From assembly GCA_012837895.1 (NCBI GenBank), contig DUQH01000141.1, positions 1 through 64,000 of the forward strand: a stretch of DNA of 64,000 nucleotides. The letters run 5' to 3'. Shown piece by piece: positions 67-63,594 of the stretch. Made by a program: the position numbers and the translations under genes. The notes under the pieces are model-generated. The model was not told the origin of the DNA, made no database searches, and was given only the letters and a program-made list of their open reading frames with translations. This DNA comes from Candidatus Fermentithermobacillaceae bacterium. Its GTDB lineage: Bacteria; Bacillota; Sulfobacillia; Fermentithermobacillales; Fermentithermobacillaceae. The first letter of the stretch is position 1. Each line of letters begins with the position of its first letter.

Positions 67-103
67 GAAGTGGCGGAGGACGCCGTCACATCTTAAACAA
101 AGA

Positions 104-2450: not shown

Positions 2451-2472
2451 CCGTCTGAGGCTGAAAGCAACG

Positions 2473-2500: not shown

Positions 2501-2521
2501 GTGCCAGAGGAGAGGTAGCAA

Positions 2522-3493: not shown

Positions 3494-3508
3494 AAGCGGT
3501 GATTATTC

Positions 3509-6263: not shown

Positions 6264-6478
6264 GAAGGCCCGGTTCCCGATGGTCCGTGTTTGCGTTTGC
6301 ACTGACGGGCCTAATCTTGACTGCGGCCTTTATAGCTATTGCCAGAAAAGGAATACCATTTGAATCTGAAGTAGAATTACACAGCCGGTTCTCATCTGCA
6401 GTAAAGGTTTTGTTCTTGGTCTGTATCGTCTTGCTAGGTGTGTTTCAGAACCGTGTTACACAAAAGAGAGACCGGTAA
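6260..6478 (+). CDS. Small two-helix membrane protein in the peptide transporter operon
   Basis: This 72-residue protein has two hydrophobic segments (about residues 7-25 and 45-62) and basic ends. TTG at 6260 is chosen because AAAGGAG lies ten bases upstream and the start overlaps the preceding stop by four bases (TTGA), which indicates coupled translation. The function is unknown. With the preceding gene it forms an unusual insertion between the permease and ATPase genes of the importer. Confidence 0.7.
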   Translation: MRRPGSRWSVFAFALTGLILTAAFIAIARKGIPFESEVELHSRFSSAVKVLFLVCIVLLGVFQNRVTQKRDR

Positions 6479-6490
6479 GGGGGCACGCAT

Positions 6491-8555: not shown

Positions 8556-8749
8556 CATATCCTTCCTTGACTGGGCATCATGATTTACTGTGATTGTTAG
8601 TTGGTGCAAGACGTCATATAACGATTCTAGAAGCACGGGGCAGTCAAGCAATGGCTAGGGAAACCGGCGGTCTTTCATGCTGGTTGCAACAGCCGGTTAA
8701 CTCAGGGCTCAACTCCGGTCAACCAAGGGCCGGATACAAGGAGGTTCCA

Positions 8750-9496
8750 ATGTCCCGCCGTCATTATCTCACTTTGATATTGATCTTTGTTGGAGTGGTA
8801 ATTGCAGGATACTTATTCGGCAGGATGGTACTCCCCCGCATCATCCTGCGTATTTTGGATTACGAGTTTGAACCTCCGGGCACTTCATGCACCGGTTTGA
8901 GCCTTACTTGTGCAAACTTCAACCCGTCCAGGTGGTTTACAGGAGCTTCGCGAAAGGGAAGTAGTGATGTAAGCCTTGGAAACAAGCTGGAAGTCCTCCG
9001 GCCGGGCACATTTGATCAATTCCCGGGCCCCGGGGCAACCTCTGAAGTCAACGTGGGTACTAAACCTGGGGATTTGGAAGATGATGAAACGACAGAACTG
9101 GAAACAGGCGCTCTTGATGATATCTGGATTGAGGTAAGTGTCACAGAGCAGCTAGTCAGGATCATGGACGGAGACAAGGTCATCAAAGAGATGATTGCAT
9201 CCACAGGCAAGGAAGGGCACGAAACGCCCCTTGGCACTTTCGAGATCCAGAACCGGGGCACCTGGTTTTTCAACGAGAAATATCAACAGGGGGCTAAGTA
9301 CTGGGTTTCATTTAGGGACTGGGGGCTTTACTTATTCCATTCGGTAGCCATGGACAAAGACGGGAATGTGATACAGGAAGAAGCGGAGAAACTCGGCCAG
9401 CCAGCGTCTCATGGATGCGTGCGTCTTGCCATAGAAGATGCCAAGTGGATATATGACAATATACCTGAAAAAACCAAAGTAGTCATACGTAAATGA
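8750..9496 (+). CDS. L,D-transpeptidase (YkuD domain), membrane-anchored
   Basis: This 248-residue protein probably cross-links peptidoglycan or modifies it outside the membrane. One N-terminal membrane helix (residues about 6-28) is followed by a linker and a YkuD domain from about residue 130 to the end. The active-site motif SHGCVRL places the nucleophile at Cys223. The family pattern STGKEGHETPLGTFEI is also present. ATG at 8750 is preferred to upstream starts because a textbook AAGGAGG lies seven bases before it. It stands alone after the peptide operon. Confidence 0.92.
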   Translation: MSRRHYLTLILIFVGVVIAGYLFGRMVLPRIILRILDYEFEPPGTSCTGLSLTCANFNPSRWFTGASRKGSSDVSLGNKLEVLRPGTFDQFPGPGATSEVNVGTKPGDLEDDETTELETGALDDIWIEVSVTEQLVRIMDGDKVIKEMIASTGKEGHETPLGTFEIQNRGTWFFNEKYQQGAKYWVSFRDWGLYLFHSVAMDKDGNVIQEEAEKLGQPASHGCVRLAIEDAKWIYDNIPEKTKVVIRK

Positions 9497-9590
9497 GCCC
9501 GGCCCTCATCTGTGATTGCCTCATCCGTCCTTCAATTAAGATCCTTTAAGCTCCAGCAACTGATTGGGCAGATTGAGAAATGTGTGTCAG

Positions 9591-9619
9591 TTGACATTTA
9601 TCTGTTATTATGTTTATGT
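9591..9619 (+). promoter_or_regulatory. Probable sigma-A promoter for the DegV gene
   Basis: A perfect -35 TTGACA (9591-9596) is followed after 17 bases by a weaker -10 TTATGT (9614-9619). It lies about 70 bases before the DegV start, in an A/T-rich gap. Confidence 0.5.
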
Positions 9620-9689
9620 AAGGCGTAATTGCTGTCGAAAAACCTGATCCCCTTGTGCAGCAAATCAACGTAGCAAGGAGCGTGGAACT

Positions 9690-10541
9690 TTGAGCGGTAT
9701 TGCAGTTGTCACTGACAGCACCAGTGATATCCCTAAAGGCCTGGCTAAGCAGTACGGAATAAGCGTAGTCCCCCTTTCTGTGATCCATGAGGGTGTTGTG
9801 TACCGGGATGGAATCGACATTACTCCTGAGCAGTTTTACCCTATGTTAGAGAAGGCGGACAGCTTACCCACCAGTTCCCAGCCTTCGCCCAGCCAGTTCA
9901 TGGATGTATTTAAGCCGTTAATAGAGTCTGGCAAGCAGGTTTTGTCGTTCCACCTTTCCAGGGCATTGAGCAGTACCGTTGATTCCGCCAGGCTTGCTGC
10001 TCAACAGCTGGCGCCAGACCGAATCCACGTTGTAGACACATGCTCCATAAGCTACGGGATAGCTGTACAGGCGATAGAGGCGGCACGTCTCGCCATGGAA
10101 GGACGAGCTGTGCCCGCAATCCTCGAACGTATAGATCGTCTTAAGAATCGCTCAGATGTCCTGTTCAGTCTGAACGCCTTGGATTACCTGCACAAGGGCG
10201 GCAGGATAGGGAAAGTGTCGTCTCTCGTGGGGAATCTGCTTAACATCAAACCTATAGTCCATGTCCAGGACGGGGTTTATGTACCTATTGGTAAAGTGCG
10301 AAGCATGAAGCAAGCGGTTACAGGGATGGTAGACTTCCTGGCTAATAAGTTCGGAGCAGACAAGGTGCGCGTGGGCGTTGGACACGGACAAGCTATCGAT
10401 TTCGCCAAGATGATTCTTGAGCAGGCAGTGTCACGGTTGAACGTTGTTGAGGAGCCGGTACTGTTTGATGTGGGTCCGGTAATAGGTGTCCATACAGGCC
10501 CAGGCACAGTGGGGATCAGCGTACACTCAGTAACCTATTAG
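9690..10541 (+). CDS. degV: DegV family fatty-acid-binding protein
   Basis: This 283-residue cytoplasmic protein binds fatty acids and, in Gram-positives, hands them to fatty acid kinase. The DegV landmarks are VTDSTSDIP at residues 7-15, TSSQPSPSQF near residue 60, FHLSRALSST near 92 and the glycine-rich HTGPGTVGI near the C-terminus. The TTG at 9690 has a GGAG site upstream. It is monocistronic, with a likely sigma-A promoter at 9591-9619, and faces a convergent minus-strand pair. Confidence 0.93.
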   Translation: MSGIAVVTDSTSDIPKGLAKQYGISVVPLSVIHEGVVYRDGIDITPEQFYPMLEKADSLPTSSQPSPSQFMDVFKPLIESGKQVLSFHLSRALSSTVDSARLAAQQLAPDRIHVVDTCSISYGIAVQAIEAARLAMEGRAVPAILERIDRLKNRSDVLFSLNALDYLHKGGRIGKVSSLVGNLLNIKPIVHVQDGVYVPIGKVRSMKQAVTGMVDFLANKFGADKVRVGVGHGQAIDFAKMILEQAVSRLNVVEEPVLFDVGPVIGVHTGPGTVGISVHSVTY

Positions 10542-11192: not shown

Positions 11193-11951
11193 TTACTTGC
11201 TCTTGATAGGTTCAGATATGTCACTGGGGTGTGCTATATGGTCATCATACTTGTCTATGTATAAGTTTCCGGAAGTGTCCAACGAGGCAACGAACACTTC
11301 TGAAGGGTCCCTTATTCCTTGTGTCCTTAGTTCGTTCAAGAGCCACTTGCGGTCCAGGTGAACCTGTTTTAGGTTGGCATCCAATATGATGCCGTCGTAT
11401 ATGAGCTCTTTTGAGAGGCCTTGGTAGTCTGTGGAAATGTTCATATCCTTTGGAGTAACAGGTTGATGTTGAGTCTTGAGCAGAACTGAGACGCGGCCTC
11501 TCGTTTCAAGCACGGCGAATTCAACCTGAGAAAGGTCGAACACGCCCATGAGTCTCAATTCCTCCATTAGGTCTGAAAGTCTGTACCTGGTCTTGCGTAG
11601 GGCGTCCTCCATTATCTTGCCGTTCATGATAACTACAGTTGGTTCGCCGTCTATGTATCTGGACGCCCAGCGCCACTTCATTACCACTACTTGAAGCAGA
11701 AACGCCAGGGCTACCCATATAGCCATTCCGAAGAACTGAGGCCACGCCCTTATTCCCAGGTCTATGGTCATTGAAGCGGCTATCGAGCCTATTGTGATGC
11801 CTACCGCGTACTCAAAGAATGTCATCTGGCTGAGCTGCTGCTTCCCCAGAATCCTGGTGAATATGAGAAGTGAGAAGAAACTTATTATAGCGCGTACCGA
11901 GACAACCAGTACTTCGTTCAAACCGCTACCACCCCGGATTAGGTTTTCCAA
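11193..11951 (-). CDS. DUF421 (YetF-like) membrane protein
   Basis: This 252-residue protein has three N-terminal membrane helices (about residues 12-95) and a cytoplasmic YetF-type domain. The family hallmark TRILGKQQLSQMTFFEYAVG is at residues 35-54, and the GEPTVVIMNGKI and later LKQVHLDRKWLLNELR segments are typical. The start is probably the TTG at 11951, although no strong ribosome site precedes it. It is followed after 84 bases by the DUF4363 gene. In spore-formers such pairs are linked to envelope or spore functions, but the molecular role is unknown. Confidence 0.85.
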   Translation of the reverse strand: MENLIRGGSGLNEVLVVSVRAIISFFSLLIFTRILGKQQLSQMTFFEYAVGITIGSIAASMTIDLGIRAWPQFFGMAIWVALAFLLQVVVMKWRWASRYIDGEPTVVIMNGKIMEDALRKTRYRLSDLMEELRLMGVFDLSQVEFAVLETRGRVSVLLKTQHQPVTPKDMNISTDYQGLSKELIYDGIILDANLKQVHLDRKWLLNELRTQGIRDPSEVFVASLDTSGNLYIDKYDDHIAHPSDISEPIKSK

Positions 11952-12103
11952 AGGCGGTGGGATGGATTACTGAAGGAGGGAGGAATCGCCGAAGATATAG
12001 AAACTGCTGCAGAGGGATAGGTTGCTGCGAAATGATGATTGTAAAGGAACCGATGGAAAGACCGGACGGGGGATTTGTCGAAAAGTTGGGGGGCAGCCAA
12101 ATG

Positions 12104-12130
12104 AAAAGGGCCTGGATTTTTCCAGGCCCT
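12104..12130 (-). terminator. Intrinsic terminator of the flagellin gene
   Basis: AGGGCCTGGA and its exact complement (12107-12116 and 12121-12130) flank a four-base loop. Read on the minus strand, the 10-bp stem is followed directly by TTTTCAT. It lies about 20 bases past the flagellin stop. Confidence 0.85.
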
Positions 12131-12150
12131 GTGGGTTTCCGATGACTGTG

Positions 12151-12954
12151 TTAGCCCAGTAGCTTCAGGATCGACTGAGGCGTAAGATTTGCCTGAGCAA
12201 GCATCGCAGTTCCTGCGGCCTGCAAGATCTGGTGCCTTGTAAAGTTGGCCATCTCAAGCGCCATGTCTACGTCCCTAATACGCGAGCCGGCAGCTTCAAG
12301 GTTCTCGGCAGCAGTGTTGAGGTTGTTGATTGTGTGCTCGAGCCGGTTCTGGCATGCACCGAGCATAGAACGCTCCGATGAGACTAGCCCGATTGCCGCA
12401 TCCAGTGCGGTGATCGCCCCGGTAGCATCAGTTGTGACATCTACTCCGTCAATGCTCAAAGCGCCAGCAGTTATTTCTTCGATTGCTATGTCCATGGTTT
12501 GGCTGGCGTTGGCGCCAATCTGCAGTGAGGTCGAGAAAGATCCATCTAACAGCGTCGTCTTGTTAAACTCGGTCCTTGCGGAGATATCATCAATCTCCGC
12601 AATGAGCTGATTGATTTCGTCCTGAATCATGTTGAGGTCTTCTTCTTCATAAATCCCGTTGCCTGCTTGCACTGCTAGTTCACGCATACGCTGCAAGATA
12701 GCATGGACCTCATTGAGTGCGCCTTCCGCAGTCTGGATCAATGAGATGCCGTCCTGAGCGTTCCTGACCGCTTGCCTGAGTCCGCGGGTCTGGGCTTTCA
12801 TCTTTTCTGAGATGGCCAGGCCTGCGGCATCGTCTGCGGCCCTGTTGATCCTGTAGCCTGAAGACAGTTTTTCCAGCGACTTGGCCATGAGCCCGTCTGT
12901 AATCGACAGGTTCTTCCACGCGTTTAGCGCAGAAATGTTGGTGTTGATTCTCAC
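12151..12954 (-). CDS. fliC: Flagellin
   Basis: This 267-residue protein is the filament subunit of the flagellum, exported by the type III flagellar apparatus. It has the conserved N-terminal D0/D1 segment (RINTNISALNAWKNL, then LSSGYRINRAADDAAGLAISE) and the C-terminal MLAQANLTPQSILKLLG. The central variable domain is very small, so this is a minimal flagellin. GTG at 12954 is chosen over a more upstream ATG because AAGGAGG lies directly before it and homologues begin here. No other flagellar gene is in the window. Confidence 0.95.
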   Translation of the reverse strand: MRINTNISALNAWKNLSITDGLMAKSLEKLSSGYRINRAADDAAGLAISEKMKAQTRGLRQAVRNAQDGISLIQTAEGALNEVHAILQRMRELAVQAGNGIYEEEDLNMIQDEINQLIAEIDDISARTEFNKTTLLDGSFSTSLQIGANASQTMDIAIEEITAGALSIDGVDVTTDATGAITALDAAIGLVSSERSMLGACQNRLEHTINNLNTAAENLEAAGSRIRDVDMALEMANFTRHQILQAAGTAMLAQANLTPQSILKLLG

Positions 12955-13369
12955 AGTTTCTACCTCCTTGTAGAATTTAGTTCGCATCCTTGCGGAATTT
13001 TGCCCGGCGACTTGTGGAAGCGAGCGCACTCCGGGCCTCATGTGCACTCTCAATGCGTTAATCGTAAACGGGTGGCATGAATTGCAGAATTCTAGTAGAA
13101 AATGAGTCTTTGGTCCTACAGTCTGGTACCGTCGCTGTTTTGGAGCTTCTTAAGATTGAGCCGTGCCAACCATTTTGGCTCAACAAGCTGTTATGTCAGA
13201 ACCGGAGATAGAAAGGCTCTCGACCTAAGAACTAGAAGGCTAAGTAGCGTAGCGGCTAGTTGGCTGATGACGAAGGGAAACGGGAAACAAAGGGATCTAT
13301 ACTTACGGTTGCTTTCCAAGATCCCTTTCAGTCTGCCAAGCGTAATACCTCCCGTCCGCGCCAGGGCCC
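12955..13369. other. Intergenic region between flagellin and Hsp20 genes
   Basis: This holds the flagellin leader with AAGGAGG at its left end. I could not place a convincing sigma-D (TAAA/GCCGATAA) or sigma-A promoter. No gene or RNA was recognised. Confidence 0.4.
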
Positions 13370-14704: not shown

Positions 14705-14923
14705 TTGAAAAAAGAACCGTGGATCAGCCAAATATCACGTGAGCTTGCACCACTTATTAGCATACACCGCTACTTGCAGCAATACACAACCGGGCAGGTC
14801 AACATTGTAGTTACGCGCCTCATACGACCTAGTTACTTGACCCTCATTGGTGATTCCGCTTTTCTACTTAGATTGTGCACCGTACTCCTTGGAGGTGAAC
14901 AAACTTGTTTGCAGAAGGAATGA
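14705..14923 (+). CDS. Possible small protein overlapping the DUF6754 gene start
   Basis: This 72-codon open frame begins with TTG after a G-rich site (GGGGGGTG). It contains no recognised domain and overlaps the next gene by 19 bases. Such an overlap would fit coupled translation, but the composition is ordinary and a chance frame within the leader is equally possible. Confidence 0.3.
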   Translation: MKKEPWISQISRELAPLISIHRYLQQYTTGQVNIVVTRLIRPSYLTLIGDSAFLLRLCTVLLGGEQTCLQKE

Positions 14924-15672
14924 TTGTTGATTTCCTGATCGCGATCTCCATGATCCTAGCAGTATTCTACACAGTCAGAAGTAGTACAACGAGAACCTGG
15001 AAAATCCGCAAGATACCAGGCCTTGATGCAATTGAAGAAGCTATCGGCCGGGCAACCGAAACAGATCGGATGGTGCTTTACTTGCCAGGATACGGAGACC
15101 TTGCTGATCCCCAGACCCTGGCATCCTTGGGCGTGTTGTCGGAAGTTGCCAAGTCTACAGCAAGGTACGACTGCAACTTAACAGTGGCAGTTGAGTACGC
15201 CAACTTGGTTCCTGTATTTGAAGAAGTGGTGCGGACCAGCTATTTGGCAGCAGGCATGGCTGATAGTTTCAGACCCCAGCAGATACGCTGGTTCTCAGAT
15301 CACTACTACGGTTACGCCGTCGCAGTTATAGGTATGATCTACAGGGAACGTCCTGCCTCAATGATCATGATGGGTAACTTCGCTTTCGACTCTCTTATGT
15401 ACGCTGAATCCGGGTCACAGGTTGGGGCTATCCAAATAGGCGGGACTGCCAACACCGGCCAGATCCCGTTCTTTGTCGCGGCTTGCGACTACGCCTTGAT
15501 AGGTGAGGAGATTTTCGCTGCTGCAGCCTATCTTACTCAAGACCCCAGCAGAATTGCCACGCTTGTTGTTGAAGACTGGGGCAAGTTCGTCGTAACAGGG
15601 TTAATTATCCTAGGTGCAGTCTTAGCCACAGCAAACTCTGTTGATTGGCTAAACCAGCTCCTGGGAAGTTAG
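14905..15672 (+). CDS. DUF6754 membrane-anchored protein, first gene of a four-gene cluster
   Basis: This 255-residue protein has an N-terminal membrane helix (about residues 6-24), a soluble alpha/beta domain, and a C-terminal helix (about 230-248). The domain matches what I recall of DUF6754: IPGLDAIEEAIGRA near residue 35, a VLYLPGYGDL strand-turn, ERPASMIMMG, and the best conserved block PFFVAACDYALIGEEIFAAAAYLTQDP. The TTG at 14905 is supported by CTTGGAGGTG upstream. It is followed by three more membrane protein genes at spacings of 15, 11 and 7 bases. No catalytic motif is evident and the biochemical function is unknown. A decayed paralogue of its last third lies at 59756-60031. Confidence 0.8.
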   Translation: MFAEGMIVDFLIAISMILAVFYTVRSSTTRTWKIRKIPGLDAIEEAIGRATETDRMVLYLPGYGDLADPQTLASLGVLSEVAKSTARYDCNLTVAVEYANLVPVFEEVVRTSYLAAGMADSFRPQQIRWFSDHYYGYAVAVIGMIYRERPASMIMMGNFAFDSLMYAESGSQVGAIQIGGTANTGQIPFFVAACDYALIGEEIFAAAAYLTQDPSRIATLVVEDWGKFVVTGLIILGAVLATANSVDWLNQLLGS

Positions 15673-15687
15673 GGGGAGTGATACACT

Positions 15688-16302
15688 GTGAAACGTTCAT
15701 TACCCTATAGCCTCACGGTTGTAGCAGCCGTAGTAATAATGATTTGTGTGTTCTTTGGAGTCGCACCGAATGTGCAACAAGAGCTGGACCAATGGTATGT
15801 TGTCAGCAACGCAATGGTGTGCGCTTTTGGCCTTGTTAACTTGACGTCTGTCCACTTTAGGCGCATCCAGCGCAAAGAAGGCGAGTGGGATTTGTCTATT
15901 CTGCTCCTGGTCATAACCTATGGGTACCTGATCCTGGGTTTGGCCAAAGGGCCCACAGATCAACTTTACAGCTGGATTTTTAATGCCACCGCTGTTCCAT
16001 TAGGTGCAACCTTTTATGCACTGCTGGCGTTTTACATTACCTCAGCAGCATACCGTGCCTTCAGGGCAAAAACCCGGGACGCTGCGATTCTCTTAGCAGC
16101 CGGCATTATTGTGCTGCTCGGCAAGGCTCCCCTAGGCGAATACTTGCTTCCCGTCATGGGGCAGTGGACAAGTTGGATCATGGACATCCCGGCCGTAGCC
16201 GCTATGAGGTCTGTGGTTTTCGGTGCCACCTTGGGCGGCTTGATTTCGGCAATACGGATTTTGCTTGGCTTTGACCGTCCGTATGCCGCAGGTGGGGAGT
16301 AG
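15688..16302 (+). CDS. Six-helix membrane protein, second gene of the DUF6754 cluster
   Basis: This 204-residue protein has about six membrane helices (near residues 7-26, 36-57, 72-90, 97-122, 128-145 and 170-190). Between helices 2 and 3 is a basic-acidic loop, HFRRIQRKEGEWD. GTG at 15688 follows GGGGGAGTG. The family is not recognised. The same gene order (DUF6754, then this protein) recurs in the truncated copy at 59756-60256, so the pair behaves as a unit. It is probably a membrane partner of the DUF6754 protein. Confidence 0.75.
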   Translation: MKRSLPYSLTVVAAVVIMICVFFGVAPNVQQELDQWYVVSNAMVCAFGLVNLTSVHFRRIQRKEGEWDLSILLLVITYGYLILGLAKGPTDQLYSWIFNATAVPLGATFYALLAFYITSAAYRAFRAKTRDAAILLAAGIIVLLGKAPLGEYLLPVMGQWTSWIMDIPAVAAMRSVVFGATLGGLISAIRILLGFDRPYAAGGE

Positions 16303-16313
16303 GAGGTGTTACT

Positions 16314-17141
16314 ATGAACATGTGGGAGAAACTGCAGAACATAGACCCAAGATGGTATTACTACCTGTTGGTGTTAGTAGTAGCATTGCCGATTATCAAA
16401 CCGTGGGGGCTTCCCATCAAAGTGGGCCCTGAGGCGCGGTCATTTTACGAGACAGTGGAAGCACTTCCGCAAGGCAGTACAATCTTTCTTTGTGTTGGAT
16501 ACCGCACCGACTCGGTTGTTGAGATGGATCCCCAGCTGGGCACGTTTTTCAAGCAAGCTCTGGATAAGGGTCTGAAGGTCATAGCCTGGGCAGCCGTAGA
16601 CGAAGGCGCTATGGTAGCACAAACGGTGCTGGGGACTATAGCAGAAGAGAGAGGTGCAGTTTACGGCAAGGACTGGATCAACTTAGGGTTCAAGCCAATA
16701 TCAGATGCGCTACTGCAGAAGATGATCGACGACTTTCATCAAGCGATGGCCTATTCCGAGATAGGCGGCGGGAGTCTGGACTCCTTTGAGATCACCAAGA
16801 ACTTCCACTCAATCAAACAAGCTGAACTAATAGTATGCTTGAGCAACGTAACCCCGAGCCCGGGAGAGCGCATGATCCGTATGATCTCCATTCCTACAGG
16901 ACTCCCCATTGTAATGGGAACAGGTTCTGTTAGTGTGCCAGGCGAAATGCCGTACTACGCATCAGGCCAGTACAAAGGGCTGTTAGCAGGCCTGCGTGGC
17001 GCCGCAGAGTATGAACTGCTTACAGATTATCCGGGTAGCGCCATCTTGGGTATGGATGCCCAATCTGCTGCCCACTTCCTCGTAATTGCGCTCATCGCAA
17101 TAGGTAACATTGGCTTTTTCCTGACCAGGAAAGGAAGGTGA
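16314..17141 (+). CDS. Membrane-anchored protein distantly resembling DUF6754, third gene of the cluster
   Basis: This 275-residue protein has an N-terminal helix (about residues 15-30), a soluble domain, and a C-terminal helix (about 250-270). Its layout and several blocks mirror the first gene: EMPYYASGQYKGLLAGLRGAAEY aligns by eye with QIPFFVAACDYALIGEEIFAAAAY, and both are followed by a proline, a short segment and the last helix. ATG at 16314 has AGGAGGTG upstream. The likely explanation is an ancient duplication of the anchored domain. The function is unknown. Confidence 0.72.
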   Translation: MNMWEKLQNIDPRWYYYLLVLVVALPIIKPWGLPIKVGPEARSFYETVEALPQGSTIFLCVGYRTDSVVEMDPQLGTFFKQALDKGLKVIAWAAVDEGAMVAQTVLGTIAEERGAVYGKDWINLGFKPISDALLQKMIDDFHQAMAYSEIGGGSLDSFEITKNFHSIKQAELIVCLSNVTPSPGERMIRMISIPTGLPIVMGTGSVSVPGEMPYYASGQYKGLLAGLRGAAEYELLTDYPGSAILGMDAQSAAHFLVIALIAIGNIGFFLTRKGR

Positions 17142-17148
17142 GCTGTAG

Positions 17149-17757
17149 ATGAGCACTACTTTAAGCAGATGGCTTGAGTTCTTCTTCACTATAAGCATAT
17201 TTTCATTGGTCCTTTACAAAGACAATAAGCTGTTCCGTATAGCAGAGACTGTTCTCGTGGGAATCACGGCGGCTAACGCGATAGTTTTGACGTTCAATAA
17301 CTATATTAAGCCGACAGTGGTATCGGACATTGGCCAGGACGGCAAGTTCTGGTACATTATCCCGCTTATCGCCGGGGCTTTGATGTACACGAGGTTTTTC
17401 GGTTCCATTGGCTGGCTGTCTCGTATTCCCATGGGTTTCTGGCTGGGTGTCGGCTCGGCATATATTCTTACCAGGCAACCGGGGTTGCTTATGTCCCAAA
17501 TCCAAGCCACTTTCCTGTCGCTCAATACCATAAACAACATACTGTTTGTGATTGGCGCAGTGACAGTGCTTGTGTACTTTTACTTCACAGTTGAAACCAG
17601 CAAGGGCCCCATTAAATCCGTAAGCGAACTTGGGAAGATATTCCTGCTTGTGACCTTTGGCGCAGCCTTTGCCAATACTGTCATGTCAAGGGTGTCGGTC
17701 TTGCTTGGAAGGTTGCAGTTTATCATCCAAGATTTCCTAAACCTTGGAGTTTCTTAA
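17149..17757 (+). CDS. Six-helix membrane protein, fourth gene of the DUF6754 cluster
   Basis: This 202-residue protein has about six hydrophobic segments and ends in a short amphipathic tail. It resembles the second cluster gene in size and topology, though sequence similarity is weak. ATG at 17149 is preceded by GGAAGG and lies seven bases after the third gene. It is closed by the strong terminator at 17778-17820, which sets the cluster boundary. The function is unknown. Confidence 0.72.
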   Translation: MSTTLSRWLEFFFTISIFSLVLYKDNKLFRIAETVLVGITAANAIVLTFNNYIKPTVVSDIGQDGKFWYIIPLIAGALMYTRFFGSIGWLSRIPMGFWLGVGSAYILTRQPGLLMSQIQATFLSLNTINNILFVIGAVTVLVYFYFTVETSKGPIKSVSELGKIFLLVTFGAAFANTVMSRVSVLLGRLQFIIQDFLNLGVS

Positions 17758-47512: not shown

Positions 47513-50500
47513 TTACTCTAGCTCTTCCAACGGGGAGTATTCGATTTTCACCGTTGTGCGGTAGTTATTGTTCCTGGTCACCGTCACGCCTGTGATTTGA
47601 CAGCCGGTTCCGGTGTCGTCGCCAACCTGAGGCAGGCCTATGATCATGTCGGCAGTGAACGGGTTTGCGAAGAAGTAGGCGCTGTTTCCGCCAGGGAATT
47701 CGTTGGTCTGGAACTGGATTGAGACTGAATATGCCACCCCTGCTTTGAACTTGCCATCTTCGAGTTCTCCTTCCCAGGTAAACTTGGGATATCCTCCATC
47801 CACCCAGAAAAGCGGCCATTCATCTTGTTCGCTGGCCACGTATTCGCTTACGGGTTCTTCGCCTACCTTAGGATGAGCTATGCTGCCCCAGCGGAACTCC
47901 TCAATGTCCGGCCTTCCCACAGATATTGTGTAAGAGGCACTTGCGGCTTGGTATACGCCGTCAGAATCAACAGACACAGTTATAGTGACAGTACCCCTGT
48001 TCCATGGCAGGGCAACTACACCGTTTTCATCCACAGGGATCAGGTCCGGATTAGAACTGGTCCAAGTGATTGCCCCCTGGCAGTCGTCGGGTAATCCCTG
48101 GAGTGTGGCGCTGTACGGGAAATCGTGGAAGTCCAGCGTGATTTCTTCCTCTGCAAAACTCAGGGACAAGGGTAACAGGGCAGGGCCTTCCTTGATAGAG
48201 TACTTGTGGAGCGTCTCATTATCCCAGGCCAGGACTGCAATGAAATCGCCTTCCTCAAGCACACCTTCATTCTTGGCAGTCTTGCTGTTGAAGTCCTTGG
48301 CGTTTTCCACGACTGTTCCTGATGCGAAGAGTTTCATCTTTGCGAACTTGGCCGGCGTCAGCCCGGAAAGGAACTCCTGTACTCCGGTTACGCCGAACTC
48401 GATGGCCTTCTCATTGGGGCTTATCTCCTCTTCGCGGACAAGATAATCTGTGGAGCTTACCGTTGCAAGCACCAGGTAATCAATTTTGCTGCTTCTGTTT
48501 ACAATGAACAGTTTTCCTGGATGAGCATCGTTATTAGCTACGCACATTTTGAAATCCTTGTCCGTGAGCAGTTCCTGAGACAGCGGTATCAGGTTGCCCC
48601 TGTGATCAGCGATGTTGATGTACTCGTAAACTGACGTATTGGCACCGCCAAACACCTCAAGTCCGGCGATGTAGCCGATGAAGCCAAGACGGCTGTTGAT
48701 GGAACTGTTGGGTGTAGTTACCGGGTTGGATTTGTACACAAGAGAATACTTGTCGGGTTCAACTTCCTTGAGATCGGCCCGGATCCTCTGGACCAGATGT
48801 TTTCCGACCCCTGGCACCCTGCCTGGTTCTACGACATATATGGCGTTTCTGCTCCAGCAGTTCTCGAACTGGTCGACCCTGTAATACCTGCGGACCTGCT
48901 CGTTAGTGGGACTGAAGGCGTCGTTTGAAATGAACCATTCCACGCCGTCATCGTCCACGAAATAGCCCCGCAGCACTATCAAGTGTCCACCAGTAGACCC
49001 TGTAGCGTTTTCGAGGTACAGCGGATCTTCCGGATCATTGGAATATGCCACACTGGCACCTACTGCGGCGCCGCTCTTGAGATGTCTCTTGATGCCTTCG
49101 ATTGTAGAATACTCTACATATGATCTGTAACCGTAAGAACCGGCTGCTGCCATGGCAAAAGACCAGCTGCCGAAATTGCCGGCCCTGAAGTCGTAGCATC
49201 CCATAGCCACTTCTTCAGGCAGCAAGTTCAGGGGCATTCCTTCCCTGGCAGATACGCCGTTTAGGAGCATCGCTGTTGTGGTGGGGTTACATATGACGCC
49301 TGCAATGTTAGGTGAACGGACAGATTGTGAAAACTGGGGTACTTCCACTTCGCACGTGTAGTCAGGGTTGTCGCCTAAGTCATCTCTGAACACCTTGGTT
49401 GGCTCAGCCCCGGCGGTCCTGACCGTTCCGTGGAGGTACCAAAGCACCGGCGATTCTACTCCTGGATTATCCCTGCGTAAAATCACTTTGAGCCTGATCT
49501 TGGAAGCAGTATCGCCTTGGTCAGGGTTTCCGCGGACATAGAACTCGTCCTGGCTGATGTTGACGTACGGTGAGTCGCTGGAAGAAAGCGAAGCCTGGGA
49601 AGATCGCTTGATGAACGGGCTCCACTCGCCCCAAGTGAGATAATGGCTCCATTCATCGTGATTGTCCAGCCACACGCTGGCGGTAACCTCTACCGAGCTT
49701 CCTTCAGGTGTGTCAGCGTTCCAAGACATGACCAGGTATTCAAAAGGCTCAATATGGATCTCCGGAGAAGTGTAGATAGCTTCTGTCACACCTTGCCTGA
49801 GCATTATTGATCCGTCGCCTATCTTGTCGCTTACTACGATTTTGTCGTCATCGAGATCGCCCAGTTCCCATTGCTTTGGCGAGTCAATCTCAAACTGGTT
49901 TCCAAATGCTTGAATGAATTCAGGTTTGCCCTCTACCAGTTCGCCGGCGATAGTAGCGGTGATCCAGTCGCCCAGGTTCAAAGCTCCGGGCATAGCATCG
50001 AGGACGGATCCGCTAACGGTTATGTTCAGGGTTCCGATAACACTGGCGCCTGCTATATTAGCAGCGGCATCCAGGGTCATTTCATCGATGTACGAATCAG
50101 CGTCTATGGTGAGGTGTACCGGGGAACTCACCAGTGTCTTGCCTTCAACCACAACATTTGTAAGGGATACACTACCTTCTCCTACTGATTCGGCGATCAG
50201 CAGATCCCCTTTGATCAGTAGGTTCTCAAGGGTGACATCTGCTGAAGTCACAACTACACTTGCGTTGAGTTCGGTCACCGTTGCAGTTCCGTAAACTCCG
50301 GGTTGATTGCAAACTTCGGCAAACAACCTGTCAAGCACAGTGACCACTTCAGCCCTTGTCATATTTGCCTCGGGTTTGAACGAACCGTCGAGGTACCCTT
50401 TGAGCAACTCGCGCTGGGCGCACGCCATGATGCCCGGCCGGCTCCATTCAGGAATCTCCGGGTCGTCAGTGAACAGGTCTCCGCCGTCGCTGTACCTCAG

Positions 50501-50914
50501 ATCCAACAGCCTGGCGAAAATGACGGCGGCCTCTTGCCTGGTGATGAAATCTTCGGGTTTGACTGTGTTGTCGGGATAGCCCATTAGATATCTGGCTGTC
50601 TTGGCCTTGTCCAGATCTTCTTTGAACCAATCATCTTCCTCTACATCGAGGAAACCTGCCGGTTCGGCCTTGGCAAATCCAAAAGTCCTGTTAACCAGGG
50701 AAGCAAACTCTGCGCGTTTGATTAGGCCGTCAGGCTGTATGGTTTCGTCGGGATATCCTTTGAGGATGCCCAAGTCGATCCAACGCTCTATGGCCTGTTC
50801 GGCCCAGTGGTCTGCTATGTCAGAAGGAGAAGCCGCCATCACCGGTGAGAGTGGGAGGAGCATGCAAATCACTAACAGGGTAGCTAGAAACCGCAATCTG
50901 AATCCGGGGTTCAT
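47513..50914 (-). CDS. S-layer-homology surface protein with papain/C39-like peptidase domain
   Basis: This 1133-residue exported protein has a signal peptide at residues 1-27 and three SLH domains at about 32-200 that attach it to the cell wall. A beta-helix-like stretch (about 210-320), a jelly-roll-like region, then a C39-like cysteine peptidase domain follow. The likely catalytic residues are Cys541 in VICNPTTTAML, His643 in GGHLIVLRGY and Asn663 or Asp664 in ISNDAF. Near residue 960 a Big_2-type Ig domain (ITWTSSNPDLIPVDENGVV) appears. The ATG at 50914 follows AGGAGG. It is monocistronic. The substrate may be peptides or a peptidoglycan cross-link, which is not known. Confidence 0.88.
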   Translation of the reverse strand: MNPGFRLRFLATLLVICMLLPLSPVMAASPSDIADHWAEQAIERWIDLGILKGYPDETIQPDGLIKRAEFASLVNRTFGFAKAEPAGFLDVEEDDWFKEDLDKAKTARYLMGYPDNTVKPEDFITRQEAAVIFARLLDLRYSDGGDLFTDDPEIPEWSRPGIMACAQRELLKGYLDGSFKPEANMTRAEVVTVLDRLFAEVCNQPGVYGTATVTELNASVVVTSADVTLENLLIKGDLLIAESVGEGSVSLTNVVVEGKTLVSSPVHLTIDADSYIDEMTLDAAANIAGASVIGTLNITVSGSVLDAMPGALNLGDWITATIAGELVEGKPEFIQAFGNQFEIDSPKQWELGDLDDDKIVVSDKIGDGSIMLRQGVTEAIYTSPEIHIEPFEYLVMSWNADTPEGSSVEVTASVWLDNHDEWSHYLTWGEWSPFIKRSSQASLSSSDSPYVNISQDEFYVRGNPDQGDTASKIRLKVILRRDNPGVESPVLWYLHGTVRTAGAEPTKVFRDDLGDNPDYTCEVEVPQFSQSVRSPNIAGVICNPTTTAMLLNGVSAREGMPLNLLPEEVAMGCYDFRAGNFGSWSFAMAAAGSYGYRSYVEYSTIEGIKRHLKSGAAVGASVAYSNDPEDPLYLENATGSTGGHLIVLRGYFVDDDGVEWFISNDAFSPTNEQVRRYYRVDQFENCWSRNAIYVVEPGRVPGVGKHLVQRIRADLKEVEPDKYSLVYKSNPVTTPNSSINSRLGFIGYIAGLEVFGGANTSVYEYINIADHRGNLIPLSQELLTDKDFKMCVANNDAHPGKLFIVNRSSKIDYLVLATVSSTDYLVREEEISPNEKAIEFGVTGVQEFLSGLTPAKFAKMKLFASGTVVENAKDFNSKTAKNEGVLEEGDFIAVLAWDNETLHKYSIKEGPALLPLSLSFAEEEITLDFHDFPYSATLQGLPDDCQGAITWTSSNPDLIPVDENGVVALPWNRGTVTITVSVDSDGVYQAASASYTISVGRPDIEEFRWGSIAHPKVGEEPVSEYVASEQDEWPLFWVDGGYPKFTWEGELEDGKFKAGVAYSVSIQFQTNEFPGGNSAYFFANPFTADMIIGLPQVGDDTGTGCQITGVTVTRNNNYRTTVKIEYSPLEELE

Positions 50915-57039: not shown

Positions 57040-57687
57040 ATGTCAGTGCTTGATTTTGAAGCCGCCATTTTCGACTTGGATGGAACATTGCTCGATTCCA
57101 TGGCGATATGGCATGAGATAGACATTGAGTTTCTCGGACGGCGCGGTCTTGACGTGCCGGATGAGTACATTTCAGCGATTAACTCAAAGAGTTTCAGGGA
57201 AACTGCTGAATACACCATTGAGTATTTTGGCTTCGATGTTACGCCTGAGGAGCTAATGGACGAATGGTTCAAAATGGCTATCGACAAGTACAGTCACCAA
57301 GTGCGTCTCAAGCCTAACGCAAAGGAATACTTGCTGTTCTTGAAAGGGCGCGGCATCAAGCTTGGAACTGCAAGCTCCTTGCCCAGGGTACTTGCTGACC
57401 CAGCACTGAAGAAAAATGGCGTCTATCATTTGTTCGATGCTTTCACCACAACAGATGAGGTTGGCCGCAGCAAGGAGTATCCAGATATCTACCTGCTGGC
57501 TGCGAGCAAACTTGGTGTTCAGCCTGGTAACTGCATTGTGTTTGAAGATATCCTGCCTGGAATAAAGGCGGTGAGAGCGGCTGGAATGCATCCCTATGGA
57601 GTGTATGATAGGTCATCAGAGCACCATCAGGAGGAAATCAGGGCGCTAGCGGAAGTCTATATCAGGGATTTCGGTGAACTTCTGTAA
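57040..57687 (+). CDS. HAD family hydrolase, beta-phosphoglucomutase-like
   Basis: This 215-residue HAD phosphatase or mutase has the nucleophile motif FDLDGTLLDSMAIWHEID at residues 10-27, a helical cap, then TASSLPRVL and FEDILPGIKAV with the acidic metal residues. The substrate is not known. The ATG at 57040 follows AGAGGAGAA. It is near, but not clearly part of, the thi operon. Confidence 0.88.
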   Translation: MSVLDFEAAIFDLDGTLLDSMAIWHEIDIEFLGRRGLDVPDEYISAINSKSFRETAEYTIEYFGFDVTPEELMDEWFKMAIDKYSHQVRLKPNAKEYLLFLKGRGIKLGTASSLPRVLADPALKKNGVYHLFDAFTTTDEVGRSKEYPDIYLLAASKLGVQPGNCIVFEDILPGIKAVRAAGMHPYGVYDRSSEHHQEEIRALAEVYIRDFGELL

Positions 57688-57734: not shown

Positions 57735-58535
57735 TTAGAGATACAGGTCCCGCTTGTTGAACATCGCTATGCCTGCTGCATACAATACAGCTGCCAGCGC
57801 GACAAATACAGCCATGCTAACGTATGCGAAGCTTGCGCCTTCAATAAGCTGTTCGGGTTGAAACAGGTAGTAAAGGGACAACTTGCCTAGCCAGCTGAAC
57901 TTGTCGCCTACATCACCTATCATTTGCAGCTCCAGGAAGGTAAGGGGGACACCGATACCCAGCCCCAGACTAACCTTGCTTTCGTTGGCTATGCATGATG
58001 CAAGGAACCCGATGCCGCCAATGGCATAGTACATCAGCAGTGAATATACGTTGACCAGGATAAAATCACCGGTTTCCATTTCGCCTGGGAGCATGATTTC
58101 AGAAAGCCCTAGAGCACAGATGGTTATCACGGCGAAAAACATGGTTATAGATGCCAGGCTGAATAAAGCTTGAGTGGCGACAATTTTCTTACGCGAGTTA
58201 GGTGTGGAAAGCAGGTATGCCCTGCTACCTCTGTCAACGTGGGCAGCAATAAGTCTGTGATTGACCACCGTTGAAATCACCATGGGGAACAAGAAAAGCA
58301 GGATTCCATACATATAAATGGTAAGGAAGGACAAGAGCGTATCCCCGACACGTTCCATGCCGAAAGCCTTTAGAAGGCCCTCAGGCAGCATTTCAAGCAT
58401 CTGTTCGATAGCCTGGGTGCTTTGGGGATCATACATGGACAGTACCACGGCGAAGTATCCGATGTAAACTGCAGTCATCAGTATCCAAATGGTACGTATG
58501 CCTCTTATGTTGGCCTTAAACAATGTCCATGACAT
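57735..58535 (-). CDS. ABC-2-type exporter permease
   Basis: This 266-residue polytopic protein begins MSWTLFKANIRGIRTIWIL and has about six helices, a layout seen in exporters for peptide antibiotics or drugs. ATG at 58535 overlaps the upstream ATPase frame by 20 bases, which fits a coupled pair. Because that ATPase is frameshifted, transport by this pair may be lost. Confidence 0.8.
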   Translation of the reverse strand: MSWTLFKANIRGIRTIWILMTAVYIGYFAVVLSMYDPQSTQAIEQMLEMLPEGLLKAFGMERVGDTLLSFLTIYMYGILLFLFPMVISTVVNHRLIAAHVDRGSRAYLLSTPNSRKKIVATQALFSLASITMFFAVITICALGLSEIMLPGEMETGDFILVNVYSLLMYYAIGGIGFLASCIANESKVSLGLGIGVPLTFLELQMIGDVGDKFSWLGKLSLYYLFQPEQLIEGASFAYVSMAVFVALAAVLYAAGIAMFNKRDLYL

Positions 58536-59417
58536 GCCGGTCGTCTTCCTTTCCGTAATAGCCGATGAATATCTCCTCAAGGGTTTGGTTGACAGTGTCT
58601 AGGCCGGTTACATGGCACCGGGCCAGGGTTGACAAAATCTTACTGTAATCATCTCCCACGAATATCTCAACCTGGTTGTTGCCAACTACCGCGTATTCCA
58701 GCCCGCTCGTCCTGATGATGTCTAAGTCTTGGCTGCCGGCCACTGAGACCAGATAGCTCTTTCTCTGGGATGTCTTCAGGGTAGCTACATCTTCTATTGC
58801 CACAATCTTTCCTTCCCTGATAATCGCAGCGCTGCTGCAAGTGCGCTCTATTTCGTCAAACCTATGGGAAGACATAAGTATCGTCTTACCCCGTTGTTTT
58901 TCTTCGAGAATGAGCCCGATAAACCGCCTTTGCATCAGGGGGTCCAGCCCGCTGGTAGGCTCGTCAAGGATGAGCACCTCAGGGTCATGCATGAATGCAG
59001 CGACCAGCGCAAGCTTCTGTTTCATCCCTTTGGACATTTTGCGAATAGGCCAGTCTGCTTCCAGTTCAAAGCGTTCAATGAGATTATCTCTCAAACTGTT
59101 GTTCTTGGCGCCCCGCATGTTGCCATGAACTCAAGGAATTGGTGCCCGTTCATATCTTCAAAGAATGCAATCTCGCCTGGAACATAACCTAGCGACTTCT
59201 GGATTTCGGCAGCATGAGTCCTGCAATCCATACCGTTTATCTTGCAGAAACCTGTTGTGGGGTTGGTGAACCCAAGCAGGACCCGGATGGTCGTAGTCTT
59301 GCCGGCACCGTTAGGGCCGAGAAAACCAAACACTTCGCCCTTTTTCGCACGGAAATTCACATTGAATATGCCTTTTCCGTTGGAATATACCTTGCTGAGG
59401 TTGCGGGTTACTATCAT
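58516..59417 (-). pseudogene. ABC exporter ATPase broken by a one-base frameshift
   Basis: The two parts read as one ATPase of about 300 residues. The first (59417 down to about 59120) starts MIVTRNLSKVYSNGKGI with Walker A GPNGAGKTT. The second (from about 59118) continues RGAKNNSLRDN with signature MSKGMKQK and Walker B VLILDEPTSGLD. The frame breaks near 59118-59122, between FMAT and MRGAKNN. The normal family sequence runs straight across this point, so one base is missing or added. No slippery run is seen there, so a programmed shift is unlikely. A true mutation or a sequencing error are both possible. Confidence 0.8.
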
Positions 59418-59668
59418 TCTCTACTCTCCTATACAGCTAATTGCCTATGGATGGTGCGGGAGTAGCTTCACCCATAATATCATCACAAATCCGGATATCC
59501 GGCAACCTCATGGGCTTTTTGATTTCAACATCATTTCGTTTCTTTAAGAGTTTTTTGGAAAACCGGTAGGAATTTTGGATATCTGCATCGAAAGAGATCA
59601 TTACAGGCTGATACCGGTAATAACAACCAGTCAAGCTACCGCCTACCGGCAGCCGGAAGAGGAGGAGT
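59418..59668. other. Divergent intergenic region
   Basis: No gene or RNA was recognised. The right end has GAGGAGGAG, a strong ribosome site for the amidohydrolase start at 59669. Confidence 0.4.
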
Positions 59669-59760
59669 GGTGATTTGGGCACCAGACCGGAGAAAAAATC
59701 CTGATTACTGGAGGCAAAGTTGTAGACGGCTCAGGTAATCCATGGTTTTACTCAGATGTA
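59669..59760 (+). pseudogene. N-terminal stump of a D-aminoacylase-type amidohydrolase
   Basis: GTG at 59669 follows GGAGGAG. After an A6 run (about 59693-59698) the frame shifts to read KILITGGKVVDGSGNPWFYSDV, the classical N-terminus of N-acyl-D-amino-acid deacylases. One base too many in the A-run would explain the shift. The match stops at GATGTA 59755-59760, where DUF6754-type sequence begins. Confidence 0.8.
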
Positions 59761-60031
59761 CCTGGCTGAGTCGGCAGCCGCCTTGGATTGCATTTCAATT
59801 GCCGGTACCGCCAGGGCTACTCAGCTCCACTTCTTCGTCGCAGCTTGTGACTATACTCTCATCGCTGAAGAGATTTTCGTGATTTCCGCTTATCTTACCC
59901 AGGACCCCACCCAACTTGGCATGGTCAGGGGAGGAGACATATCAAAGGTAATCGCTTGTCTCCTTATCGCTGTAGGTGCTATATCAGCTACTCTCGGACA
60001 AGACATTATAGGCTCAATCATAAGCAAGTAG
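59756..60031 (+). pseudogene. C-terminal fragment of a DUF6754 paralogue
   Basis: The 91 codons match the last third of the protein at 14905-15672: FFVAACDYTLIAEEIFVISAYLTQDP aligns with FFVAACDYALIGEEIFAAAAYLTQDP. About 165 N-terminal residues are missing and no ribosome site precedes it. The divergence shows it derives from a second paralogue, not a recent copy of the gene in this window. Confidence 0.85.
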
Positions 60032-60050
60032 TGTGGGGTGAGAAAACATC

Positions 60051-60256
60051 ATGCGTACAGAGTTGCCTGTGGCGATAGCATGCATAAGTGGGTTCATAAT
60101 CCTGATAGCTCACTTCTTCAACATAGGTCCTTCCAAGACAGCTGCAACGCATTTACAGGACTGGGGCATCATAGTCGCTGCCTTCGCAATTGTAGTCAGC
60201 ACCGTCAACCTCATGATGGTGCATACCAGGAGGCTATCGAACCAGCGTGAAGATTC
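60051..60256 (+). pseudogene. N-terminal fragment of the second DUF6754-cluster gene
   Basis: The frame from ATG 60051 aligns by eye with the start of the protein at 15688-16302. It shows two similar helices, then VNLMMVHTRRLSNQREDSW against VNLTSVHFRRIQRKEGEWD. The match ends at about 60256, where amidohydrolase sequence resumes in another frame. GGGGTGAGAA precedes it, so this end was a normal gene start. Confidence 0.82.
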
Positions 60257-61276
60257 ATGGAAGAAAGTGAATTGGCCAAAATGGTCCGGGAGTACGGCGG
60301 GATATTCTCTTTCCACCTGGAGAGCGAAAGCAAGGACCTTGTGCGATGTGTCTCACAGGCCCTTGAAGTAGCTGAAAAGTCAGGCGTTTCACTTCAGATT
60401 TCTCACCTAAAAGCTGCTTTTCGTCCCAATTGGGGAATGGTGAATAATGTGCTCCAAATGATTGACGACGCCAAGCAAGCCGGCACTAATGTCGGCTTTG
60501 ACGTGTATCCATACATAGCATACGGCAGTGGCCTTATCGACCTTATGTCTCCTTGGATCCGTGAGCAAGGTGCAGGCAAGATGGTTGAAATGCTAAAGCA
60601 CAGCCCGGTCAGGGACCGGGTGTTGAGCGAGATGGAACATCCAACGGAAGAGTGGGAGAACCCTGCTCACGGCTGCGGATGGGACAACATTAGGATCGCT
60701 ATGCTGAAAACCGACGCAAACCGGAAGTACGAGGGCATGACTGTCAGCCAGGTAGCTGAAGACATGGGACTTACCCCGGCAGAGGCCACCGTTAAGCTTA
60801 TGATAGAGGAAGAAGCAGCTATTAAGGCTATCTATTTTGCCATGTCTGAAGAGGACCTGGAGACTATAGTGAAGCACCCTGATTCGATCTTTGCAACAGA
60901 CGGCAGGGCGGTAGCTCCTTACGGACCCCTGGGGCAGGGCTCGGTACACCCTAGGTATTACGGTACCTATCCGCGCATACTTGGCAGGTATGTTAGGGAG
61001 AAGAAGGTTTTCACCCTGGAAGAAGCCATTAGGAAGATGACTTATCTGCCTGCCAAGAAAGCCGGCCTTAGGAACAGGGGGCAGCTGGCAGAGGGGTATT
61101 GGGCAGACATAACAGTCTTTGACAAGCACAAGGTCATCGACGTAGCTACTTTCGAGGACCCCCACCAGTATCCAACCGGGATTGAGTATGTGATCGTGGG
61201 TGGCCAGCTTGTGATTGAAAAAGGAGAACATACAGGAAGACTGCCAGGCAGGGTTCTGAAAAGGGGAGAATCATAG
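60257..61276 (+). pseudogene. C-terminal two thirds of the D-aminoacylase-type amidohydrolase
   Basis: The open frame of 339 codons contains ELAKMVREYGGIFSFHLESE, LQISHLKAAFRPNWG, FDVYPYIAYGSGL, FATDGRAVAPYG and GQLAEGYWADITVFD, all typical of N-acyl-D-amino-acid deacylases. Roughly 180-200 residues, including the first metal-binding His-x-His, are missing between the stump at 59760 and here. It is probably inactive unless a separate start yields a stable fragment. It is followed by the hairpin at 61333. Confidence 0.85.
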
Positions 61277-61529: not shown

Positions 61530-62282
61530 ATGCTCAACAAGGAGGGGCACGTTCCGCTTTACATACAATTGAAAGACCTGATACAGGAGAAGATCGAATC
61601 CGGAGTCTATGCTGAGGGAACGGCTATCCCGTCTGAACGGGAACTCTGCAACATGTACGAAGTAAGTAGAATCACCGTAAGGCAAGCGATTGAGCGGGCC
61701 GTTTCAGAGGGCCTCTTGGTAAGAAGGCCTGGGAAAGGGACTTATGTGTCTGCCAGAAAGATTCATCAGCCTCTCGAACGCATTACCTCCTTCGGGACAA
61801 CCATGACCGGACAGGGTTTGCTTGCCAAGACATCAGTTCTTGAAGCACAAAATGCATATGCACCGGCCAAGGTGTATGATATTCTGCAAGTCAGCAAGAA
61901 CACGCCATTGGTAAAGCTTGTACTCTTGGGAACCGCCAATTCACAACCGCTGGCAATATACACATCCTACTTCAGACCTGACATTGGTGAACAGATGGCT
62001 GATTATGCCTTAGAGTGGGCAGCCCAGGGAAGGGCTTTTTCTTCATTTGATCTCTATGAGGGTATGAGCCATGAATTGCGGCCGGTTGTGGCACGACAGA
62101 CATTTGAGGCAGGTTTGGCATCGAGTATGGTGGCACGACACCTCAGGCTAGGCAACCCTGCGGTGGTATTCGTTGTAGAGTCGGTAGCAGAATCGAAAAC
62201 GGGCGTGCCAGTGGAATACAAAATCGCCTATTACAGAGCGGATCGCTACAGATTCTCCATCGCCCGTAAGATCGGGACGTAA
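61530..62282 (+). CDS. GntR/HutC-family transcriptional regulator
   Basis: This 250-residue regulator has an N-terminal winged-helix domain (residues about 5-75, with PSERELCNMYEVSRITVRQAI) and a UTRA ligand-binding domain (about 95-240, ending VPVEYKIAYYRADRYRF). The ATG at 61530 follows AAAGGGGGG. It probably controls the following AtuA/DUF4387 genes and perhaps the upstream amidohydrolase, with a small acid or amino acid derivative as effector. Confidence 0.93.
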   Translation: MLNKEGHVPLYIQLKDLIQEKIESGVYAEGTAIPSERELCNMYEVSRITVRQAIERAVSEGLLVRRPGKGTYVSARKIHQPLERITSFGTTMTGQGLLAKTSVLEAQNAYAPAKVYDILQVSKNTPLVKLVLLGTANSQPLAIYTSYFRPDIGEQMADYALEWAAQGRAFSSFDLYEGMSHELRPVVARQTFEAGLASSMVARHLRLGNPAVVFVVESVAESKTGVPVEYKIAYYRADRYRFSIARKIGT

Positions 62283-62409: not shown

Positions 62410-63254
62410 GTGTCAAACAAAGAAAAGCTAACAATTCTATGTCCCAACGGGCACCTGGGGTTTGCTCCTTCCATTGGATTGGAGTAGAGCAGAAGCCTGA
62501 CTACTACTGTTGCGATTCGGGAAGCAATGACATAGGGCCAACGCCCCTTGGAGCCGACTTGTCTGTCAGTCCTTGCGAGTGGCAGGTACACGACCTGGAG
62601 ATGTTGCTTGTAGCATCCAGGAAACAGGGAGTACCCATGCTCATTGGCTCCTCCGGAGATACAGGGAGCAACAGCCGGGTTGACATGTATGTGGACATCA
62701 TAAAGAAGCTGGCAGAGAAGCACAACATGCCCAAGTTCAAGCTAGGTTACTTCTACTCTGAAGTGCCTGTTGAGCATATAGTCAAGAAACTAAAAGAAGG
62801 CGTGGAGATTGAAGGGCTGGATGGAAGGCCGAACCTGACCGTTGAAGAGGCAGAGGCCACAGACAGGATTGTAGCGGTAGCAGGCATCCATCCGTTCATG
62901 AAGTTGCTCGATATGGGGGCAGACGTCATCATCGGAGGCCGTTCAAGTGACTGTGCCATTTTTGCCGCTCGAGCACTTGAGCCTGTAAAGAACGTACAGC
63001 CCCATGAGATGTGTATTGTAGTTGAAGGTATTGCTCCGACCAAGGAAGAGGCAGAGGAAGTCGCTATGATAGGATCAAGGCAGCTGTTCTATGCGCGCTT
63101 GCCAGAAGTCAAGGGCACTGCAGGCACTGCTGCGTTCATCTTAGACGAAGTGTTCCCCGCTTCGCCTGCATACAAGTGGACCCTGAACCATGTCATCCCA
63201 GTTGATGACCCAACGGAATTCTTCCAGGTTCACATTGTGGAAGCAGGAGTTTAA
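62410..63254 (+). pseudogene. AtuA-like (DUF1446) gene with frameshift and probable internal deletion
   Basis: GTG at 62410 follows GAGGAGGG and reads VSNKEKLTILCPNGHLGFAPSIGLE before a stop at 62485-62487. The family sequence continues in another frame as EQKPDYYCCDSGSNDIGPTPLGAD, so one base is lost or gained near 62480-62495. From my memory of the family, about 150-180 residues are missing after DVIIGGRSSDCAIFAARALE, where sequence jumps to PVKNVQPHEMCIVVEGIAPTKEEA, which normally lies near the C-terminus. Members are about 450 residues; this one would be near 280. It precedes a DUF4387 gene, a common partner. Confidence 0.72.
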
Positions 63255-63267
63255 GGAGGCTGTGAAA

Positions 63268-63594
63268 ATGAAGACTGTCAGACTGGAAGAGCTCGCCAAA
63301 GTCATAAGAAGCAAGAACGCAGGGCCCGACAAGGTGACCTTTGATATCATCTTCAAGAGCCGGGACGACTACGAAGCTGTCAAGGCTAGCAAAGCACTGA
63401 CTCCTGAAACGGTTACAAAGCTGTTTGGCGTTAGTAAGGACAAGCTCAGTGATTTTGTCGAGTACGATCCTGCATGCGCAATAAAATTCACCCTATACAG
63501 GTCCATACCTAGCGGCAGCCCTGGGGATGGAGATGTCTTTGGTTGTCAACAGTATCCGCCTCTGATGGGCCTGGAAATCCCGCTCCAAGCGTAG
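63268..63594 (+). CDS. DUF4387 domain protein
   Basis: This 108-residue cytoplasmic protein matches DUF4387: LEELAKVIRSKNAGPDKVTFDIIF at the start and DPACAIKFTLYRSIPSGSPGDGDVFGCQQ near the end. ATG at 63268 follows AAGGAGG. It typically accompanies AtuA-like proteins, and the pair may act on a small organic acid. Function is unknown, and its partner here seems broken. Confidence 0.85.
   Translation: MKTVRLEELAKVIRSKNAGPDKVTFDIIFKSRDDYEAVKASKALTPETVTKLFGVSKDKLSDFVEYDPACAIKFTLYRSIPSGSPGDGDVFGCQQYPPLMGLEIPLQA

Follow-up and report, generated by a model that had tools for sequence, protein, structure and literature searches.

Towards the end of the stretch of DNA analysed here (the window, 64,000 nucleotides, positions 1-64000 of contig C73 of genome G000), the beginning and the end of amidohydrolase genes are found on either side of pieces of a DUF6754 gene cluster, and the question this raises is whether cluster DNA has entered a gene to which it did not belong or whether DNA has been lost from genes that were always neighbours. 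G000 is an assembly of 2.05 Mb in 146 contigs that is 96% complete, and the site was compared with that in congeneric genomes, with Candidatus Fermentithermobacillaceae bacterium DTU015 (G002) as the reference and with G001 and G004. It is highly likely that what remains here is a single resident operon, with the order A1 - D1-D2-D3-D4 - A2 - GntR - AtuA - DUF4387, that has been worn down by deletions in place. The phenomenon is thus ordinary gene decay, the erosion of an operon, at an unusually legible stage.

The evidence that carries this reading is the same site in G002, on contig C48, which is identical to LFST01000036.1 of DTU015. Here every gene of the row is whole, starting with a D-aminoacylase of 542 aa (A1), followed by the DUF6754 gene D1 (258 aa), D2 (204 aa), D3 (278 aa) and D4 (203 aa), then a second D-aminoacylase of 541 aa (A2), a GntR regulator (250 aa), an AtuA gene (457 aa) and a DUF4387 gene (110 aa). 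The flanks are common to both genomes, with thiD, thiM, thiE and a HAD gene on the left and DUF4153 on the right, and the contig is colinear with G001, G002 and G004 over 37-57 kb. The query falls into three pieces that lie on one strand of a single G002 contig in the same order, with bases 1-91 matching C48:4057-4148, 91-603 matching 6272-6784 and 600-1598 matching 9479-10477, at 78-85% DNA identity (best E 4e-235). These are the start of A1, the end of D1 with the start of D2, and A2 without its first third. As G002 has the whole genes between the same flanks, this part of the window is that operon minus DNA; the pieces, their order and strand, the missing DNA and the intact operon in a sister species can all be read directly from the comparison, and we infer that the intact state is the ancestral one.

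A1 and A2 are two different genes, which lie 3.2 kb apart in G002, and this decides against the preliminary description, which had taken both ends for one amidohydrolase; one end is A1 up to codon ~29, the other its neighbour A2 from codon ~207 onwards. The A1 stump (59675-59759, plus strand) has 84.7% DNA identity to G002:C48 4051-4148, and whilst the start of a D-aminoacylase is indeed present, as had been described, it is already frameshifted, since a 1-bp loss in an A run brings a stop nine codons after the homologous TTG at 59675. Its end is the first deletion junction (59757-59759), where position 59759 corresponds to 4148 as well as to 6272 in G002:C48; about 2,124 bp are lost, being the remaining A1 and the first two thirds of D1. 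The D1 remnant that follows (59759-60031, plus strand) consists of the C-terminal ~90 codons, with 92% aa identity to G002 D1, and spans positions 171-253 of the 257 in the PF20539 profile, scoring 93.3 bits against a curated cut-off of 27 (E 1.7e-26). The identification of 59756-60031 as the C-terminal third of a DUF6754 protein was therefore right, as was that of the start of the second cluster gene behind it, which is found at 60051; this D2 remnant (60051-60270, plus strand) holds the first ~73 codons at 79.5% aa identity to G002 D2.

The second junction (60268-60271) is placed near 60270, with 60271 mapping to G002:C48 6784 and 60268 to 9479, so that 6784 is joined to 9482. About 2,698 bp are lost here, comprising the remaining D2, the whole of D3 and D4 and the first 206 codons of A2. 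The A2 remnant (60268-61276, plus strand; 82.6% aa identity to G002 A2) carries the D-aminoacylase type of C-terminus that had been recognised (PF07969, 7e-17), although its homology to A2 begins at 60268 and not near 60257. The middle of an amidohydrolase has hence not been replaced, for the cluster pieces stand in their ancestral place between two genes, from which 2.1 kb and 2.7 kb have gone.

Downstream, the GntR/UTRA regulator of the operon (61530-62282, plus strand; PF00392, PF07702) has an intact ORF with 80.8% aa identity to that of G002, and the AtuA-family gene (62410-63254, plus strand; PF07287) is a remnant when aligned to G002 11698-13071. It has a frameshifting deletion of 13 bp after 62473 and one of 516 bp after 62975, lesions of the same operon that had escaped the preliminary description. 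The DUF4387 gene (63268-63594, plus strand) appears intact, with 79.8% aa identity to the G002 copy, which matches PF14330, and by their ORF layout the remaining genes in the window are complete.

On the left, the HAD-family hydrolase gene (57040-57687, plus strand) has 77-85% DNA identity in G001, G002 and G004 and always lies just before the operon site; the G002 copy matches PF00702/PF13419 in Pfam. Between it and the operon, G000 has on the minus strand (57735-59417) an ABC-2 permease gene (57735-58580) and, broken in two by a frameshift, an ABC ATPase gene (59091-59417 and 58516-59118), recognised from Pfam matches and split ORFs, and these have no match in the aligned loci of G001, G002 and G004. 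Upstream of A1 is a conserved non-coding element of 69 bp (59559-59627) that is 91% identical to G002 (L013:3848-3915) and includes a 28-mer, ATTACAGGCTGATACCGGTAATAACAAC, identical in G002 and containing the palindrome TACCGGTA. It is a candidate promoter or operator, and possibly one on which the adjacent GntR regulator acts.

Decay of the same operon is seen in other congeners. In G004 the HAD gene is followed by ~260 bp of unassigned DNA, a piece of 88 bp made of the end of AtuA and the start of DUF4387, and what is left of a shortened DUF4387, with breakpoints that differ from those in G000, and in G001 no operon lies between HAD and DUF4153, which adjoin each other. In an rpoB tree G002 and G004 are grouped (96), the placement of G001 being uncertain (support 60). 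Given this grouping, the operon existed in the common ancestor of G000, G002 and G004 at the latest, and its erosion in G000 was independent of that in G004, whilst G001 may never have had it. Stepwise loss can be followed in an uncultivated thermophilic lineage, from the intact operon of G002 through the partial erosion in G000 to a small scar in G004 and no operon in G001. A comparable case within the same genomes is a gene for an SLH/C39-peptidase protein of 1,133 aa (window 47513-50914), which is whole in G000, G002 and G004 and is present in G001 (L212, about 5910-7283) as three ordered fragments only, with deletions of about 1.4 kb and 0.7 kb and junction overlaps of 0-1 bp.

A gapped operon may also be made by an assembler that skips internal pieces of an intact one, for instance when strains are merged. 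G000 was probably binned from a metagenome, as it has 146 contigs and its relatives are MAGs, there is a related public contig (L081, JAKOUW010000249.1) that looks suspicious too, and no relaxed selection is seen so far in the remnants, all of which would suit such an artefact. It would nevertheless need at least four separate deletions and a frameshift within one operon, at sites with few-base homology at most and with the neighbouring genes left intact. The skipped DNA is moreover on no other contig; a search for the lost DNA in the rest of G000, a genome that is 96% complete, gave nothing close and only paralogue-level matches (up to 78% identity, at most 267 bp, E no lower than 1e-12), and the amidohydrolase middle that had been counted as missing is not in the rest of the genome. 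Finally, G004 is a separate assembly that lost the same operon from the same site with other breakpoints. An artefact is thus improbable. As for L081, which is labelled Chloroflexota, its positions 1-4307 are identical to the DTU015 contig (L057) and both start at the same base, with an abrupt fall after 4,307 to about 77% identity inside A1, the gene that is also broken in the window; it is either a chimeric public contig or a recombination.

The next possibility is that the remnants still have a role for which they are retained, for example as a shortened A2 protein of 339 aa or as regulatory RNA or DNA under the intact GntR. The open A2 frame is long, its dN/dS is low, and GntR, DUF4387 and the element at 59559-59627 are intact. 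Against this, the A2 remnant has lost H60, H62 and C89 (A2 numbering) in the deletion, which we take to be the first metal-binding motifs of D-aminoacylases (the family of PDB 1m7j), and retains H222, H252 and D417. The complete metal-binding site (HxH, Cys, two His and Asp) is hence not found in it, HxH and Cys being deleted, and the A2 remnant should be inactive. In addition AtuA is frameshifted, this form of the operon is known in no other genome, and the low dN/dS mostly reflects the time before the deletions. A retained function is accordingly very improbable, and with the catalytic ligands of the H-x-H and Cys motifs lost, the sequence indicates that the operon remnants are very probably dead.

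That pieces of some foreign DUF6754 cluster were inserted into a single amidohydrolase gene by microhomology, for which paralogous donors would be abundant in G000, is contradicted by the G002 locus, where the amidohydrolase ends belong to different genes flanking the cluster and the pieces have the same ancestral order and orientation, and with a first junction that overlaps by just 1-3 bp this reading was dropped as next to impossible.

If the region is the remnant of a resident operon, two deletions in place, of ~2,124 bp from A1 to D1 and of ~2,698 bp from D2 to A2, would have brought the first codons of A1 up against the D1/D2 boundary, and this in turn against the end of A2. The ends of two amidohydrolases brought together in this way look like one gene with a foreign middle, and deletion scars that lie side by side can pass for an insertion when a sequence is read without tools. 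A 1-bp frameshift at the start of A1 and the deletions of 13 bp and 516 bp in AtuA would be further steps in the same decay. It stands that the junctions are scars of recombination, but the ATGTA said to be shared at the left junction is not supported by the parental sequences, the left parent reading GATGTGC in G002 and the right parents CTCTACC in G002 and CTGTACC in L081. The overlap is 1-3 bp, and recombination driven by microhomology at this site has no support beyond that. The overlap at the second junction is up to about 4 bp and that at J3 is 2-5 bp, so that repeats at the junctions amount to 0-5 bp with no clear direct repeats, as far as can be told against a reference that is 20% diverged at the DNA level and leaves exact breakpoints uncertain by a few bases. 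The deletions were probably RecA-independent illegitimate events that required little or no homology.

Their age may be judged from the remnants, in which dN/dS is ~0.06 for A2 and ~0.03 for D1, values like those of neighbouring intact genes and obtained with dS near saturation. Since relaxed selection is so far not seen in the remnants, the deletions would be recent, and they would have been neutral once the operon had lost its use.

The cluster from which the D1 and D2 pieces come may matter more than the decay of the operon itself. The window has an intact copy of D1-D2-D3-D4 (14905-17757, plus strand), with 276 bits to PF20539 for its D1 (14905-15672). It is a paralogue and not the source of the fragments, which in their DNA are 79% identical to the G002 cluster, and in this the preliminary description was correct, as it was in supposing that the genome had another cluster, for DUF6754 has 12 matches in G000. 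There are 9 in G002, 14 in G006, 15 in G010 and 27 in G028, and the family is absent from 14 control genomes. At most of about 55 loci examined the full order D1-D2-D3-D4 is found on one strand, the remaining loci being cut by contig ends, lacking a member or having a gene that the caller or profile missed. A further cluster, at about 8200-9900 of G000:C121 (L140:3700-5400), is decaying beside an intact one, with D2 frameshifted, D3 cut near its C-terminus and D1 and D4 absent. D3/D4-like genes also occur on two Bathyarchaeota contigs (L066, L067), each contig having a D-aminoacylase at a distance of about 8-9 kb, and the cluster is thus also present in archaea.

To our knowledge DUF6754 is a family without known function, and a literature search on it found no mention of the family, just as one on DUF4387/AtuA returned unrelated papers only; NCBIfam gave no names of use for D1-D4. 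D2 is predicted to have about five membrane segments and D4 at least three, with one or two plus a soluble part in D1 and D3. No relatives of D1 or D3 were found among solved structures, and AlphaFold models built from 3-4 sequences were poor (pLDDT 48 for D1 and 59 for D3), a fold search with the D3 model giving generic dinucleotide-fold matches only, at TM-scores of about 0.2-0.3. The idea that D1/D3 and D2/D4 are homologous pairs was rejected, as profile comparison gave them less than 5% probability. Neighbours of the clusters include D-aminoacylases and enzymes of the DUF885, M20, S9 and gamma-glutamyltranspeptidase types. Amidohydro_3 was found for 10 of 81 neighbours, against no listing among 41 proteins lying further away (one-sided Fisher p ~0.014), in a comparison among the first 25 families listed, with unmatched controls and with several neighbours that are orthologues. 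The Fermentithermobacillaceae are described as fermenters of peptides and amino acids (PMC10215811). It is possible, if rather doubtful, that D1-D4 act together as a membrane uptake system of several subunits, so far undescribed and with peptides or N-acyl (D-)amino acids as its probable substrates, which in several of these genomes has expanded to ~9-27 paralogous copies per genome of 1.4-3.8 Mb, each copy matched to its own cytoplasmic hydrolase, and with a quick gain and loss of copies of which the window locus would be one loss. A four-gene membrane system that recurs many times next to peptidase and amidohydrolase genes, in bacteria that ferment peptides, has in any case a function that is open to test.

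Compared with known families, both the remnant of D1 and the whole D1 at 14905-15672 score above the curated cut-off of PF20539, the remnant being the C-terminal third only. The intact A1 and A2 of G002 share the fold signature and metal-ligand motifs of D-aminoacylase and N-acyl-D-glutamate deacylase (PDB 1m7j, 3gip); unlike these enzymes neither remnant in the window can form the active site, as A1 is cut after ~29 codons and A2 lacks its first third. As a process, the reductive evolution of Streptococcus agalactiae has proceeded by many short and long deletions, which are attributed to RecA-independent illegitimate recombination between short repeats (PMC3637634). The operon in G000 likewise has short and long deletions, and a similar mechanism may be supposed, although its junctions have 0-5 bp and no clear direct repeats where those of S. 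agalactiae have short repeats. In Salmonella, decay is followed by kilobase deletions, and bacterial pseudogenes are eroded under a deletional bias (Kuo and Ochman 2010, PMC2916853). The locus described here is similar in that unselected genes are disrupted and then removed by deletions of kilobase size, with relatives retaining intact counterparts; it differs in that sister species show, at a single site, several stages in the loss of one whole operon, and in that the organism is a free-living thermophilic fermenter and not host-associated.
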